Source: Acidimicrobiia bacterium
GTDB taxonomy: Bacteria; Actinomycetota; Acidimicrobiia; Acidimicrobiales; Bin134
Length of the DNA stretch: 64,000 nucleotides
NCBI GenBank assembly: GCA_022822905.1
Contig: JAJDYE010000004.1
Location: 1 to 64,000 of the forward strand
Direction of reading: 5' to 3'
A program made the translations under genes and the position numbers. Below the pieces are notes generated by a model that was given only the letters and a program-made list of their open reading frames with translations, was not told where the DNA came from and did not search any database. Each line of letters starts with the position of its first letter. Position 1 is the first letter of the stretch. Below are positions 2,570 to 11,074 of this stretch, piece by piece.

Positions 2570-3103
2570 CTACGCCGCGGTCAGGCGGGCGACGGCTTCG
2601 TCGATGATGGTGGTGGCCAGCTTTTGGAGCGACTCGTCGTCGAGGGTGGACACGGGGTGGGGGACGGTGACCGCGGGGTAGCTGGCCATGCCCACGGTGG
2701 GGGCGAACGACTCAACCACCGGCTCAAACGGCTCGGTTATCAGCAGCATCGAAGGGATGCCCCGGGATTCCATGTGGACGGCGTCGTGCAGACTGCACGC
2801 CGTGCAGGCCCCTCAATCGCCCAAGCCGGAAATGATGAGGTGGGAGCGGGCGGCCAGCATCTCGGCGTCGTCGGCGTCGATGGGCTTGCCAGCAGCCGAC
2901 TTGGAGTGGACCACGATGTCGGCCACCGGGAGGCGGTCGCGCAGGCCCTCGGCCACGTAGGTGAGCAGCTCTTTAGCGTTGTTCTTGGCGTTGTCGATCA
3001 CCCCGATGACCAACGGCTCAGTGGGGGTGAAGCGGGGGGCCATCGCCACTTCATCGATTTGGGCTTCTTCGTAAACCGGAGACAGAACAGTTACCGACGA
3101 CAT
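2570..3103 (-). CDS. UGSC-family selenoprotein (in-frame UGA = Sec97)
   Basis: Two apparent ORFs (N-part ending at the TGA at 2813-2815, C-part from 2773 to 2570) are in the same frame. Reading the TGA as selenocysteine gives one 177-aa protein with GLGDUGACTACSLHD, which matches the UGSC family of (seleno)proteins, where U or C precedes G-(S/A)-C. Coding character continues seamlessly across the UGA, and a hairpin fitting bacterial SECIS rules lies just downstream. The start is ATG 3103 with GAGAGGAG upstream; the longer start at 3136 would overlap the previous gene. It is 13 nt downstream of the 353-aa partner gene, so they are one operon. The U-G-A-C site suggests a redox function, but the reaction of this family is unknown to me. 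No selA, selB, selC or selD is in the window. Confidence 0.87.
2780..2801 (-). promoter_or_regulatory. Candidate bacterial SECIS hairpin
   Basis: On the minus strand the mRNA can fold as GGC-GUGCA-GUC-UGCAC-GAC-GCC: a 5-bp upper stem (2786-2790 with 2794-2798), GUC apical triloop (2793-2791) and an outer GGC/GCC pair with a 3-nt bulge. The apical loop starts 19 nt after the UGA and begins with G. Published bacterial SECIS models want a loop 16-37 nt from the UGA with a G in its first two positions, so it fits. Folding was done by eye. Confidence 0.6.
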
Positions 3104-3116
3104 GCGAACTCCTCTC

Positions 3117-4178
3117 TCACGCCAAGGGTAGTCCATCGCCGGGCGCGGCCACCTTGCGGGTGACGGCCTCCGAGTGTACGACCGGGGCCCAGTTGGGGAT
3201 GTAGGCCGACCAACCGGCTCCGGGACTGCCTGCGGTGACCAAGAAGATGTCGTCGGGCCCCCGCACGGTGTTGAGCTTGCCGTCGGCGTCGGGGGTCATG
3301 TCGTTCTGGGCGGTGAACTCCTGCAAGACGCCGCCAGCGTTCAAGTACCCGGGAGTCACCCTGCTGTGCTCGGTCAAGAACTCCCGCACCTGCTGTTTGG
3401 TCCAACCGGCCTCGGCCAGAATCTGGCGGTGCTCGTGGCCGATCACCAGCAGTACCTGGTGTTTCTTGGCCACTGCGTAGGTGGCCGGGTTGGTCATGGC
3501 AGCGGCGAAGGTCAACAGGATCCCCTCGGGGTCGCCGTTGAGGTGGTTGGCCACTTGATGGAGGCTCTCAGAGGGGAACATCGTCACCGTTGTGTCGCCC
3601 TCGCCGTAGCCCAACTCTATCCGCAGCGGCGGCCACCCCTCGGGAGGGGGCTCCTCGGCCACCAGCATCGTGTACTTGCCGGGGTGTCCTAGCGACGACC
3701 CGTCGAGGGTGTCCGACCGGGCGCCCAGCACGTTCATGGCCACCAGCCGCAGGGCCCGCCCCACCGTGGCGTTGGCCCGGTGGCCCGGCCCGAGGGCATT
3801 GCGAGAGGAGTTAAACCCCAGTTCAGCCACCAGCGGCCCGCTCACCACCGCGCACAGCGCAGCACCGCCGGTGCTGGTCACCACGGTGTGGCACCCGAAT
3901 TGGGGGTCGAACATCGCCGACAAGCCGGCAAGCACCACTGGGAAGTACTCGGTTCGGCACCCGGCCATCACTGCGTTGATCGCCGCCTTCTCCGCCGTCA
4001 CTTCTCGGGACCGCTCGGGCACGTTGCCCACGATGTCGCTCGCGCCCAATCCGGCATGGTCGAGCATCGCCTCAACCCGATCCGACGCGGGCGGAACCAC
4101 GGGCAGCCCATCGGTCCACCCCCGGTCGAAGAACTCCTCTTGCACGTCCCCCGCGTCGAGCATCAACTCCTGAGCCAT
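3117..4178 (-). CDS. Conserved 353-aa partner of the UGSC selenoprotein
   Basis: This 353-aa soluble-looking protein has no signal peptide or membrane segment. It begins MAQELMLDAGDVQEEFFDRGWTDG and carries PERSREVTAEKAAINAVMAGC, a Gly/Ala-rich STGGAALCAVVSGP segment and ELGFNSSRNALGPGHRANATVGRALRLV. I do not recognise a named enzyme. It ends 13 nt before the selenoprotein start and shares its strand, so the two are co-transcribed and probably act together, for example as catalytic and redox subunits. The ATG at 4178 has no Shine-Dalgarno but a TAGTTT hexamer 6 nt upstream, so it is likely leaderless. Confidence 0.8.
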   Translation of the reverse strand: MAQELMLDAGDVQEEFFDRGWTDGLPVVPPASDRVEAMLDHAGLGASDIVGNVPERSREVTAEKAAINAVMAGCRTEYFPVVLAGLSAMFDPQFGCHTVVTSTGGAALCAVVSGPLVAELGFNSSRNALGPGHRANATVGRALRLVAMNVLGARSDTLDGSSLGHPGKYTMLVAEEPPPEGWPPLRIELGYGEGDTTVTMFPSESLHQVANHLNGDPEGILLTFAAAMTNPATYAVAKKHQVLLVIGHEHRQILAEAGWTKQQVREFLTEHSRVTPGYLNAGGVLQEFTAQNDMTPDADGKLNTVRGPDDIFLVTAGSPGAGWSAYIPNWAPVVHSEAVTRKVAAPGDGLPLA

Positions 4179-4184
4179 GGAGCG

Positions 4185-4197
4185 AAACTAGTAGGGT
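4185..4197. promoter_or_regulatory. Back-to-back -10 hexamers of divergent leaderless genes
   Basis: TAGTTT (minus strand, 4190-4185) lies 6 nt before the ATG at 4178, and TAGGGT (plus strand, 4192-4197) lies 8 nt before the GTG at 4206. The divergent starts are only 27 bp apart, so the two promoters must overlap and probably compete. No Shine-Dalgarno is seen on either side. Confidence 0.55.
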
Positions 4198-4205
4198 TCG
4201 CCGCC

Positions 4206-5000
4206 GTGACGGGAAGACTGACAGGCAAGAGGGCCATAGTGACCGGGGCAGGCTCGGGCATCGGCAAGGCCGCGGCCCAGCTGTTCGCTGCCGAGGGCGC
4301 CCGGGTGATGTGCGCCGACATCAACGGCGACGCCGCGGCAGTCACTGCGGCTGAGGTCGGAGATGCCGCCATCAGCATGCGGGTGGACGTGACCCAACCC
4401 GACGACTGCCAGGCCATGACCGAACAGGCGGCAGCCGCCTTCGGCGGCCTCGACGCGGTGTACTCCAACGCCGGGGTGGACGGGCCGGGCCGGGCCGGCG
4501 ATCTCAGCTTGGAGGAGTGGAATCGAGTGATCGGGGTGAACCTCACCGGAAAGTGGCTGTCGGTCAAGTACGCCATACCCCACCTCATCGAGGCGGGCGG
4601 CGGCTCGCTGGTGCTCCAGGCCAGCGTCGGCGGCGTGATCGGCGTGCCGGGCATCGCCGCTTATGCCGCGGCCAAGGCCGGGGTGATCGGCCTCACCCGG
4701 CAGATGGCAGTGGACTACGGCCCCGACAAGATCCGGGTCAATGCCATCTGCCCGGGAACGGTACCCACCCCCCTGGTGCGGGCCACCTACGAGAAGCGGG
4801 GCGGGTTCTCGGCCACCGCCGCCGTGGCGGCCGACGCCACCGTCGATGAGATGATCGAAGCCGCCGTTGTTCGCCACCCCATCGGCCGCCTCGGCACCAC
4901 CACCGACATCGCCCAACTCGCCCTGCACTTGGCCTCCGACGAGTCGTCGTGGACCACCGGCACCGCCATCGTGATCGACGGCGGCATGTCGGTGGCCTGA
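4206..5000 (+). CDS. Short-chain dehydrogenase/reductase (SDR)
   Basis: A 264-aa classical SDR. It has the N-terminal cofactor motif TGAGSGIG (residues 13-20), the acidic ADIN after the second strand (favouring NAD), the structural motif NAG (SNAGVDG), the catalytic Ser in LQASVGG, and the Y-x3-K pair in AAYAAAKAG. The C-terminus ends with the usual WTTGTAIVIDGG. The start is GTG 4206; a much longer upstream frame is only the shadow of the opposite gene. Substrate cannot be told from sequence; relatives oxidise secondary alcohols in lipid, steroid or xenobiotic breakdown. Confidence 0.88.
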   Translation: MTGRLTGKRAIVTGAGSGIGKAAAQLFAAEGARVMCADINGDAAAVTAAEVGDAAISMRVDVTQPDDCQAMTEQAAAAFGGLDAVYSNAGVDGPGRAGDLSLEEWNRVIGVNLTGKWLSVKYAIPHLIEAGGGSLVLQASVGGVIGVPGIAAYAAAKAGVIGLTRQMAVDYGPDKIRVNAICPGTVPTPLVRATYEKRGGFSATAAVAADATVDEMIEAAVVRHPIGRLGTTTDIAQLALHLASDESSWTTGTAIVIDGGMSVA

Positions 5001-5013
5001 CCAAACTCGAGGC

Positions 5014-5577
5014 TCAGCCGACCTCGGCGAAAAACTCTTGCCAGGTGTCAAGGCTCTCGGGGAGCTCCGACGGTCCCACCGTGCCGAAATAGCGCTTGCG
5101 GTCCGACTCCGACAGGCCGCCGTCCACCAGTGCGGCCATGTCCATGTAATAGATCATGGCCACCTTCCGCTCCACGAAGCGCCAGCGGCCGTCCTCCACC
5201 CGGTACTCGTCGAAGTAGCGCAGCGCGGTCATCAGCGTGCGACCGTCGAGGGCCAGTTCGGCGTGGGCGTTGACCATGCCGGTGGCAAAGCCGGGGCGGT
5301 CGGGATCGAACTCGATGACGTGGCTATGGGGGTAGTGGTACGTGGGCCCGAACGCGGCCATGCGCTCGGTGTAGAAATCGATCACCGCCTGCCGGCCCTG
5401 GTTGGCCACCATGCCGTCGGCCAAGGCGAACTTGGCGTCAGAGGTGAACATGTCGGCCAATCCGCTCACATCCCGGTCATCCACCGCCATGCCGTAGCGG
5501 GCCACAAGCTCCCGGATTTCCTCCCGAGCCTCCAACTGCGCAATGCGCTCGGCCAAGCCCTCAGATGCACCAGACAT
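5014..5577 (-). CDS. SnoaL-like / NTF2-fold protein
   Basis: A 187-aa protein with the SnoaL-like (NTF2) cone fold: an N-terminal helix (LEAREEIRELVARYGMAVDDRD), the FTSDAKFAL strand, and a C-terminal TALRYFDEYRVEDGRWRFVERKV block typical of the family. Members include polyketide cyclases, dehydratases and ring-hydroxylating dioxygenase small subunits. The ATG at 5577 with GAGAGGA upstream is chosen; an earlier start at 5682 would only add an unlikely Arg-rich tail. It converges on the SDR with 13 bp between stops. The exact reaction is unknown. Confidence 0.75.
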   Translation of the reverse strand: MSGASEGLAERIAQLEAREEIRELVARYGMAVDDRDVSGLADMFTSDAKFALADGMVANQGRQAVIDFYTERMAAFGPTYHYPHSHVIEFDPDRPGFATGMVNAHAELALDGRTLMTALRYFDEYRVEDGRWRFVERKVAMIYYMDMAALVDGGLSESDRKRYFGTVGPSELPESLDTWQEFFAEVG

Positions 5578-5696
5578 GCCGTTTCCTCTCCGCTCGCGAA
5601 GTTCTGCCGCCCCAGCCTGGTTTGCCGAGTCCAGCCAGCGAAAACTACCGTCGCCCTCCGTTGGCCAGCAACGCCCGGTCAACTTCTAGGGGGGCC

Positions 5697-9703: not shown

Positions 9704-11074
9704 ATGACTCGACGCTGGCTGAAGCTTGTTGCAGCCCTGTTTGCGTTCGCACTGATCGCAGCAGCCTGTGGCAACGATGATGACGACGGTGGTGCTGCTC
9801 CGGCGCCAGCGCCTGCTGAAGAGGAAGCACCCGCTCCGGCGCCGACCGAGGCGCCCACCGAGGCGCCCGCTCCAGCGGAAGAAGAGCCCATGGAGATGAC
9901 GGTGCCCGACAACCCGGACAACGGGGTTACCTCCGACTCGATCAAGGTCGGCTGGATGGGAGACCTGACCGGTCCGACCGCCTCGTCGCAGTCGTTCAAC
10001 AGCCACGGCATCGAGGCCTATTTCGAGTGCGTCAACGAGAGTGGCGGCGTCCTGGGACGGATGATCGACTATCTGCCCGAGGACGACCAGTTCAACGCCG
10101 ACAATGCCGCGATCAACTTCACCAAGCTCACCGAAGACGACAAGGTGATCGCCCTGCTCGGCTTGGGCGGCTCGCACATCAGCACCCAGCTCCAGCCCGA
10201 CGTCGAGGCCCTGAACCTGCCGGTGATCGGCCCACCCCAGACCATTGACATCCAGCTTGAGGGTGACCAGTACTTCAACAACCTGGCCCACTACGGCGAC
10301 CAGGCCGACCTGGCCGCCGGACACATTGCCGCCACCGTCGGCGGAATCGAGAACGCCGTGGTCATGGGCATCAGCCTTGAGGTGCCCTCCGGCACCGAGT
10401 TCGCCGCCTACGTAGAGCAGTCCGTACTCAAGGGTGGCGGCACCTACGTCAACACCCTGTACGTGGCGCCGGGGGCCACAGAGGTCACCGCTCAGATGGT
10501 GGAACTGCAAGAAGGCATCGATAACCAGGGCGTGAACTACGTGACCCTCCACGGCTCGCCGGGCGCTGGCCTGGTGGTCATGCAGGGCATGGCCGACGTG
10601 GGAATAACCGACATTCCCATCATCGGCATCCACGGCATCGCGGCCAACTCGATCTGGACCGAGGGACCGGAGTCGGTCAGCGACCAGACCTTCGGCATGC
10701 ACTCCTTCATGACCGCCAACAACAACATCGCAGCCTCGGCTGAGATGGAGCGGTGTGCAACGCTGGCCGGCTACGACGGCGAGCACCTGAACCTGAACTT
10801 CTCCCACGGCTTCCTCAACGGGTACGTGTTCCACCAGGCCATAGAGCGGGCTGCGGAGACCGGTGAATTGAGCCGCGAGAGCCTGACCGAGGCTCTGAAG
10901 GGCACATTCGACACCATGGGCATAACCTGCCCGATCGACTGGAGCGCCAGCAACCACAGCCAGTGCGGCGCGGCGTTCTCGCTCGATCCCGCCTCCGGCG
11001 GCATGGTGCCGGCCAATCCGTTCAGCTTCTACGCCGACAGCTTCGACGGCGAGTACGGCATCGAGATCGGCTAG
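9704..11074 (+). CDS. livK: Branched-chain amino acid-type ABC substrate-binding lipoprotein
   Basis: A 456-aa periplasmic-binding-type protein (Peripla_BP_6 family). The signal peptide ends in the lipobox IAAAC with Cys22 as the lipid anchor. A low-complexity Ala/Pro/Glu linker (about residues 25-65) follows, then the two-lobed binding domain from SIKVGWMGDLTGPTASSQSFNSHG onward. The start has AAGAGGGG upstream. Cell-surface-tethered receptor for the LivHMFG transporter. The ligand is not predictable; the P450 just downstream hints at a substrate that is oxidised after uptake. Confidence 0.9.
   Translation: MTRRWLKLVAALFAFALIAAACGNDDDDGGAAPAPAPAEEEAPAPAPTEAPTEAPAPAEEEPMEMTVPDNPDNGVTSDSIKVGWMGDLTGPTASSQSFNSHGIEAYFECVNESGGVLGRMIDYLPEDDQFNADNAAINFTKLTEDDKVIALLGLGGSHISTQLQPDVEALNLPVIGPPQTIDIQLEGDQYFNNLAHYGDQADLAAGHIAATVGGIENAVVMGISLEVPSGTEFAAYVEQSVLKGGGTYVNTLYVAPGATEVTAQMVELQEGIDNQGVNYVTLHGSPGAGLVVMQGMADVGITDIPIIGIHGIAANSIWTEGPESVSDQTFGMHSFMTANNNIAASAEMERCATLAGYDGEHLNLNFSHGFLNGYVFHQAIERAAETGELSRESLTEALKGTFDTMGITCPIDWSASNHSQCGAAFSLDPASGGMVPANPFSFYADSFDGEYGIEIG

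Follow-up and report, generated by a model that had tools for sequence, protein, structure and literature searches.

What does a selenoprotein of the UGSC family do, and is the 353-amino-acid (aa) protein encoded next to it part of the same enzyme? Both genes lie in the window, a stretch of 64,000 nucleotides (nt) comprising positions 1 to 64,000 of contig JAJDYE010000004.1 from an Acidimicrobiia bacterium. Taken together, our results indicate that UGSC and its partner probably each supply one half of an enzyme that uses selenium and is a distant relative of glycine reductase. Tying UGSC to a near-obligate partner and to the selenocysteine (Sec) domain of GrdB and PrdB turns a selenoprotein lacking an assigned function into a testable two-subunit enzyme.

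Gene layout of the locus

On the minus strand, the partner gene (positions 4178 to 3117) ends 13 nt upstream of the UGSC gene (PF24696), which runs from an ATG at 3103 to a stop at 2570 (177 codons) and is preceded by a GAGAGGAG-like ribosome-binding site, as judged by eye. An in-frame TGA at 2815 to 2813 specifies residue 97, giving the motif context GLGD-U-GACTACS. A two-gene UGSC system with an uncharacterized partner had been proposed from the letters alone (the sequence-only reading), and the coordinates, the PF24696 assignment, and the class-wide pairing described below strongly support it.

The partner start codon (ATG, 4178) and that of an SDR gene (GTG, 4206) are divergent and separated by 27 nt (4179 to 4205). 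TANNNT-like boxes (TAGTTT and TAGGGT, by eye) are located ∼6 to 9 nt upstream of the partner and SDR starts, one on each strand. No sigma-70-type promoter was found at this spacer, and an Rfam scan of the whole window returned no match. The claim that the pair is expressed back to back with the SDR from a leaderless promoter is correct with respect to the divergent starts; the boxes fit leaderless expression and do not prove it. The SDR does not belong to the module: its synteny with the pair is shared by the nearest relative (G252) only. The SnoaL and branched-chain-transport genes were rejected as module parts on the same grounds.

Reading of the in-frame TGA as selenocysteine

The window selenoprotein is a clear member of the UGSC family, with 157.3 bits against PF24696 (curated cutoff of 25) and the Sec-G-[SA]-C motif. 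Against the NCBIfam equivalog model NF041046, it reached 124.6 bits, marginally below the cutoff of 125. Homology to PF24696 continues beyond the TGA. All six UGSC genes of the genome (3.8 Mb, 42 contigs) have a single in-frame TGA, located at an identical site in each, and the five Cys-type homologues within the class whose sequences were read encode Cys at that site (codon TGC, motif CGSC). The genome also carries selA (401 bits) beside selB (277 bits), a selD (357 bits) that has its own TGA and is Sec-containing, and a tRNA-Sec with the anticodon TCA. With this machinery present, the Sec reading is well founded; combined with the same-site TGA in all paralogues and the Cys in homologues, it indicates that this codon is no accidental stop.

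A tally of the motif (n = 151) yielded 133 UGSC, 7 UGAC, 4 UGGC, 5 CGSC, 1 UAAC, and 1 UGSS sequences. In the window, U97-G-A-C is followed by TAC, which produces a UxxCxxC arrangement (UGACTAC). A strict pattern captured 52 motifs, of which 33 have a Cys at position +6, so UxxCxxC is not universal in UGSC.

Folding of the RNA beyond the UGA was evaluated with single-base shuffles. Among 146 Sec sequences, the median z score was -1.54, versus -0.09 for the stretch 150 nt upstream; the Cys-type set in this test consisted of five sequences only. Of 143 distinct sequences, 92 have an apical loop that begins 19 nt past the UGA. Three variable base pairs form in 127, 134, and 136 of the 143, where column makeup would predict 113, 107, and 90. 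These comparisons support a hairpin immediately beyond the UGA as a property of the UGSC family. The window's candidate SECIS-like hairpin (2803 to 2778, minus strand) was placed by the centroid fold and the family-wide loop position, and this individual copy scored no better than shuffles (z scores of -0.45 and +0.88). Such a result would suit a true stop codon in a decayed pseudogene, a reading that we consider practically negligible: a single same-site TGA occurs in 6/6 paralogues and in 127/150 of the UGSC matches listed for the class, Cys takes its place elsewhere, the Sec machinery is complete, and homology runs past the TGA.

Pairing of UGSC with its partner

Each of the six UGSC genes in this genome is flanked by one of six partner genes, in both gene orders. 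The partner paralogues are 27 to 36% identical to the window partner over the alignment. Co-occurrence in other genomes, on which the sequence-only reading had staked the pairing, was borne out by a survey of 296 genomes of the class (at most 7 partner and 11 UGSC candidates scored per genome): 106 genomes had UGSC, 105 had the partner, and 103 had the two together (phi = 0.96). In both partner-only genomes (G092 and G162), the partner gene is located at the end of a contig (positions 52 to 1080 in G162). The three UGSC-only genomes comprise two weaker matches (G154, 5e-4; G196, 9e-7) and one strong match (G103).

For the class-wide analysis of adjacency, the best 150 matches each for UGSC and the partner were used. 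A partner lies on the same strand within about 0.4 kb for 146 of the 150 UGSC matches listed; 111 have a listed partner within 260 nt on the same strand, and inspection of the remaining 39 loci revealed an adjacent partner at 35. The exceptions were L134 (partner at 1.3 kb), L159 and L167 (cut by a contig end), and L132 (no partner within 3 kb). Cys-type homologues also retain the partner, a point that the sequence-only reading had proposed to check. Among the matches listed, 22 of the 23 UGSC genes without a TGA have a partner, the one exception lying at the end of a contig; all five of these TGA-free sequences that were read carry CGSC. Four further UGSC/partner pairs with CGSC were found at loci L228 to L230.

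Outside the class, a scan of an 84,980-species collection with the partner profile retrieved at least 80 loci, with 449 relatives confirmed. The hosts among the 80 listed loci include Dehalococcoidia and other Chloroflexi, Burkholderiales and other Betaproteobacteria, Rokubacteria, Gamma-, Alpha-, and Deltaproteobacteria, Acidobacteriota, Binatia, and others. In these loci, 77 of 85 partner genes have a same-strand UGSC no more than 0.7 kb away, 4 have a more distant one on that strand, and 1 has it on the opposite strand. The other partner genes (3/85) have no UGSC and are all within 223 nt of a locus end. A TGA is present at the motif in 79 of the 81 UGSC matches of the 80 listed loci. The opposite-strand case, at the gammaproteobacterial locus L068, has the two genes tail to tail and is the only one of its kind among the 85.

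UGSC and the partner also occur as natural single-open reading frame fusions. Seven were found in 6 of the 80 listed loci (L057, L062, L089 [twice], L122, L124, and L127), in both domain orders. The L127 fusion (positions 4029 to 5669) has neither Sec nor Cys at the motif of its UGSC half, and a second complete partner gene comes after it; judging from its sequence, the fusion is maybe a noncatalytic copy.

The divergence of the two proteins was also compared. Over 142 pairs (partner of at least 250 aa, UGSC of at least 140 aa, gap of <700 nt), the partner and UGSC distances were correlated with an r of 0.898, much of which may reflect shared ancestry; the largest value in 1,000 permutations was 0.07. 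For the six paralogous pairs of this genome, the distance correlation was 0.65 (rank 3 of 720 permutations). On the basis of these distances, UGSC and the partner duplicate as pairs.

Both genes are found among varied catabolic and transport genes, as might be expected were they merely cotranscribed neighbors in a catabolic island with no joint function. We regard that reading as very improbable in light of how often the genes adjoin and occur together in 296 genomes and in 80 listed loci of other groups, the existence of both gene orders, and the natural fusions. UGSC and its partner are conserved together far beyond chance and constitute a conserved module. Six copies of the pair are present in this genome, and the richest genomes surveyed have seven or eight. 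Five to eight UGSC copies per genome were observed in some class members (e.g., G123, G076, and G227). Neither UGSC nor the partner is present in G181 and G242, which are smaller genomes from the same genus; thus, the system is dispensable.

UGSC as a family dates back to 2008. A Sec-dependent enzyme, as proposed in the sequence-only reading, is our best reading. In the available text of the 2008 ocean survey (PMC2398784), a thioredoxin-like fold is proposed for UGSC, the family ranks fifth by sequence number (255) in a table, and a UGSC/"Unknown_1" fusion is mentioned with neither a function nor genome-wide pairing. This fusion is probably the same pair in fused form, and the partner may therefore have been glimpsed before, unnamed. 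As far as the available text of the literature goes, UGSC is treated as a stand-alone family, unlike the near-obligate second subunit found here. Titles and the opening parts of abstracts, from a body of work with few subscription papers and no preprints, contained neither a UGSC function nor a partner, and the review passages among the text covered (from PMC9312934, PMC7539508, PMC13188914, PMC10838667, and PMC2398784) assigned UGSC no function.

Homology and predicted fold of UGSC

A profile of 80 UGSC sequences (79 segments of at least 140 aa plus the window protein) was aligned by hhalign to a profile of Sec domains taken from 19 GrdB/PrdB-like proteins of the same phylum, with a probability of 95.9% and an E value of 5.5e-9. 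The alignment places Sec on Sec and extends to downstream ...E..GIP... and ...P-G... segments. Four GrdB-like reads (L196, L197, L201, and L204) were left out of the GrdB/PrdB-like profile. In 40 column shuffles of this second profile, the best score was 21.6, versus 61.6 for the real alignment, and the probability was at most 2.8%. Masking of the eight columns around Sec still gave 92.8%, and the GrdE controls gave 0.1 to 0.3%. These profile alignments show homology between the C-terminal part of UGSC and the GrdB/PrdB-like Sec domain. The UGSC profile matched full-length GrdB alone more weakly (68%), which counts against our best explanation. None of the six UGSC genes matched PF07355; the only PF07355 match of the genome is on contig C6. 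That contig encodes a short GrdB-like selenoprotein with the motif PVUPLC (L204, positions 9709 to 10128 and downstream), and short Sec proteins resembling it are also present in other genomes of the phylum. Against Protein Data Bank (PDB) sequences, the best UGSC match had an E value of 0.044, which was taken as chance.

The natural fusion L089 (544 aa) was modeled by AlphaFold with a mean pLDDT of 91.3 and a pTM of 0.92, from an alignment with 21 rows covering both domains and 33 covering the partner only, part of the rows reading through stops. In the model, the UGSC half alternates strand and helix in five units and places Sec465 between a strand (457 to 463) and a helix (466 to 481), and the top structural matches are Rossmann/flavodoxin-like (Z of about 9 to 11). 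A Rossmann-like fold is therefore predicted for UGSC. No GrdB or PrdB structure was among the structural matches of this half, which excludes nothing. A thioredoxin fold is not supported, as the order predicted in the fusion model lacks the beta-alpha-beta-alpha-beta-beta-alpha pattern and has Sec after strand 3. Randomly placed domains would give a pTM near 0.6, as estimated from their lengths, versus 0.92 here; thus, the joint arrangement of UGSC and the partner, as seen in this fusion homologue, is predicted with confidence.

The partner protein

The partner represents a widespread protein family not yet modeled by Pfam or NCBIfam. In an alignment of 86 members (85 segments of at least 300 aa plus the window protein), none matched Pfam, and one matched NCBIfam with an E value of 0.003, which was taken as chance. 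No PDB sequence matched the partner at E values up to 5, and PHROGs returned nothing. Invariant positions across the 86 sequences include D22, R140, N148, E174, and W181. None of the invariant positions is a Cys, and C73 is the only Cys conserved in 90% or more, in agreement with the earlier remark that the partner has no obvious redox center. GrdE/PrdA was rejected as a relative of the partner, which gave an hhalign probability of 0.1% against the GrdE profile.

The AlphaFold model of the partner (pLDDT of 93, pTM of 0.93) retrieved class I fumarases (E value of 2e-5) and cyclic amide hydrolases (E value of 4e-4) in Foldseek. These hits raise the alternative that the partner is hydratase/lyase- or hydrolase-like, with a class I fumarase/Toblerone-like fold, and that UGSC is regulatory or metal delivering. 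The fumarase/Toblerone rows (E values of 2e-5 to 1e-3) have TM scores of 0.20 to 0.30, root mean square deviations above 13, and VIA-align Z scores of 4.7 or less, values in the range of common arrangements; these matches, along with those to the chorismate mutase fold, were judged too weak. Class I fumarases are also expected to have three Fe-S Cys residues, none of which has a counterpart in the 86 partner sequences. Since this alternative would additionally leave the Sec or Cys at the UGSC site unexplained, we view it as distinctly unlikely.

A proposed two-subunit selenoenzyme

Several known systems have one Sec protein and one second subunit. D-Proline reductase, with a short Sec subunit (PrdB) and a larger second subunit (PrdA), follows the same two-gene logic as the UGSC pair (PMC13188914). 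Protein B of glycine/sarcosine/betaine reductase also resembles the pair: GrdB has a homologous Sec domain with UxxC, often UxxCxxC, and its second subunit is encoded adjacently. In genomes with full-length GrdB, GrdE is next to GrdB (PF09338 in 11/11), which reflects the two-subunit logic of UGSC and its partner. The differences lie in the long N-terminal part of GrdB, which UGSC lacks, and in the second subunits. GrdE and PrdA belong to PF09338, with no matches in this genome, whereas the partner is unrelated to GrdE by profile and has no conserved Cys for a pyruvoyl group. The lack of GrdE/PrdA similarity and of an invariant pyruvoyl-forming Cys in the partner is a further point against our best explanation.

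Sec domains such as those of GrdB and PrdB attack a substrate carbon that is activated by the other subunit, GrdE or PrdA (PMC13188914 and PMC10838667). For the fluoroacetate reductase FarB/FarE, the accessible portion of PMC10838667 proposes Sec attack on a substrate that already has a good leaving group; the FarE-type second subunit has no pyruvoyl-forming Cys, and the proposed reaction is pyruvoyl free. FarB/FarE thus offers the best chemical analogy to UGSC and its partner, although FarB and FarE are GrdB and GrdE homologues of anaerobes and the partner described here is not.

By analogy with these three systems, we lean toward a single two-subunit selenoenzyme in which the UGSC selenolate would attack a partner-held substrate and a C-X bond would be cleaved reductively. 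UGSC would supply a Rossmann/flavodoxin-like domain akin to the C-terminal Sec domain of GrdB and PrdB, with Sec opening the helix that comes after strand 3 and one or two Cys residues downstream of it (UxxC, often UxxCxxC). The partner would act as the substrate-binding subunit in place of GrdE/PrdA, being sequence unrelated to both. The selenolate would attack an activated carbon (or other electrophile) of the bound substrate, the C-X bond would be cleaved reductively, and the resulting selenoether or selenenyl-sulfide would be resolved by a neighboring Cys and a thiol reductant. The putative resolving Cys is at +3, with another at +6 in the window (UGACTAC). Paralogous pairs may serve different substrates. 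As for the earlier suggestion that Sec may serve as a redox or leaving-group site, an attacking nucleophile is likelier than a leaving group.

Alternatively, UGSC could be a thiol/selenol oxidoreductase that reduces or protects the partner (or a disulfide or peroxide there), with the partner as the enzyme and Sec resetting it. Sec followed by Cys (UxxC) occurs in many redox selenoproteins, the thioredoxin-like fold proposed in the accessible part of PMC2398784 would suit such a role, and the partner could catalyze a reaction alone via the invariant D22, R140, N148, and E174. Nevertheless, the predicted fold is Rossmann-like and not that of thioredoxin, the partner has no invariant Cys and therefore no conserved disulfide to reduce, and strict 1:1 pairing with paralogue-specific co-divergence exceeds the needs of a general reductase. 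We find this account rather unlikely and retain the two-subunit selenoenzyme as the preferred reading.

More tentatively, UGSC and its partner might represent a third two-subunit Sec reductase architecture beside GrdE/GrdB and PrdA/PrdB, a possibility to which we commit less firmly. It would combine a GrdB-type selenolate domain with an unrelated, pyruvoyl-free substrate subunit, extend from the window's class to Chloroflexota, Rokubacteria, and proteobacterial lineages, include substrate-specific paralogues, and carry out reductive cleavage of polarized C-X bonds in organisms lacking the glycine reductase system. The pair is a good candidate for a new Sec enzyme architecture with proposed chemistry, and the partner is identified as the second gene needed for coexpression with UGSC.

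Genomic surroundings

The genes around the pairs are variable and include those for an amidohydrolase, enoyl coenzyme A (enoyl-CoA) hydratase, AsnC regulator, MFS, TctC, thiolase, and CoA transferase, with MATE, PhyH, and luciferase-like proteins in spot checks. Such variety suits accessory catabolism with many substrates. No conserved third gene, GrdA/GrdC-like or other, was present among the neighbors examined; the lack of a GrdA/GrdC-like gene, like the origin of the joint model from a fusion homologue, counts against the proposed selenoenzyme. At five gammaproteobacterial loci (L100, L105, L108, L113, and L120), a gene of ∼394 to 406 aa directly follows UGSC; those of L100 and L105 encode acetyl-CoA acyltransferases (thiolases). 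Of 92 near neighbors, 6 matched thiolase. A CoA-linked substrate is possible in that gammaproteobacterial subgroup.

In the window, a tyrosine recombinase-like gene (PF00589; E value of 7.5e-12) on the plus strand (positions 1465 to 2547) is directly downstream of the UGSC gene and convergent with it; a run of C residues is found near 1501 to 1515, at its 5′ end. Just upstream of this gene, a 24-nt inverted repeat (96%; 1035 to 1058 and 1393 to 1416) contains GGATAAATGCCTTTATCC and is possibly a recombination or mobile-element end. Positions 1 to 983 encode, on the minus strand, the start of a protein rich in TxT, Cys, and His repeats that runs past the window edge and, given its signal-like N terminus (MTAPAKRPSRKLLLAFLSMLL...), is probably secreted.
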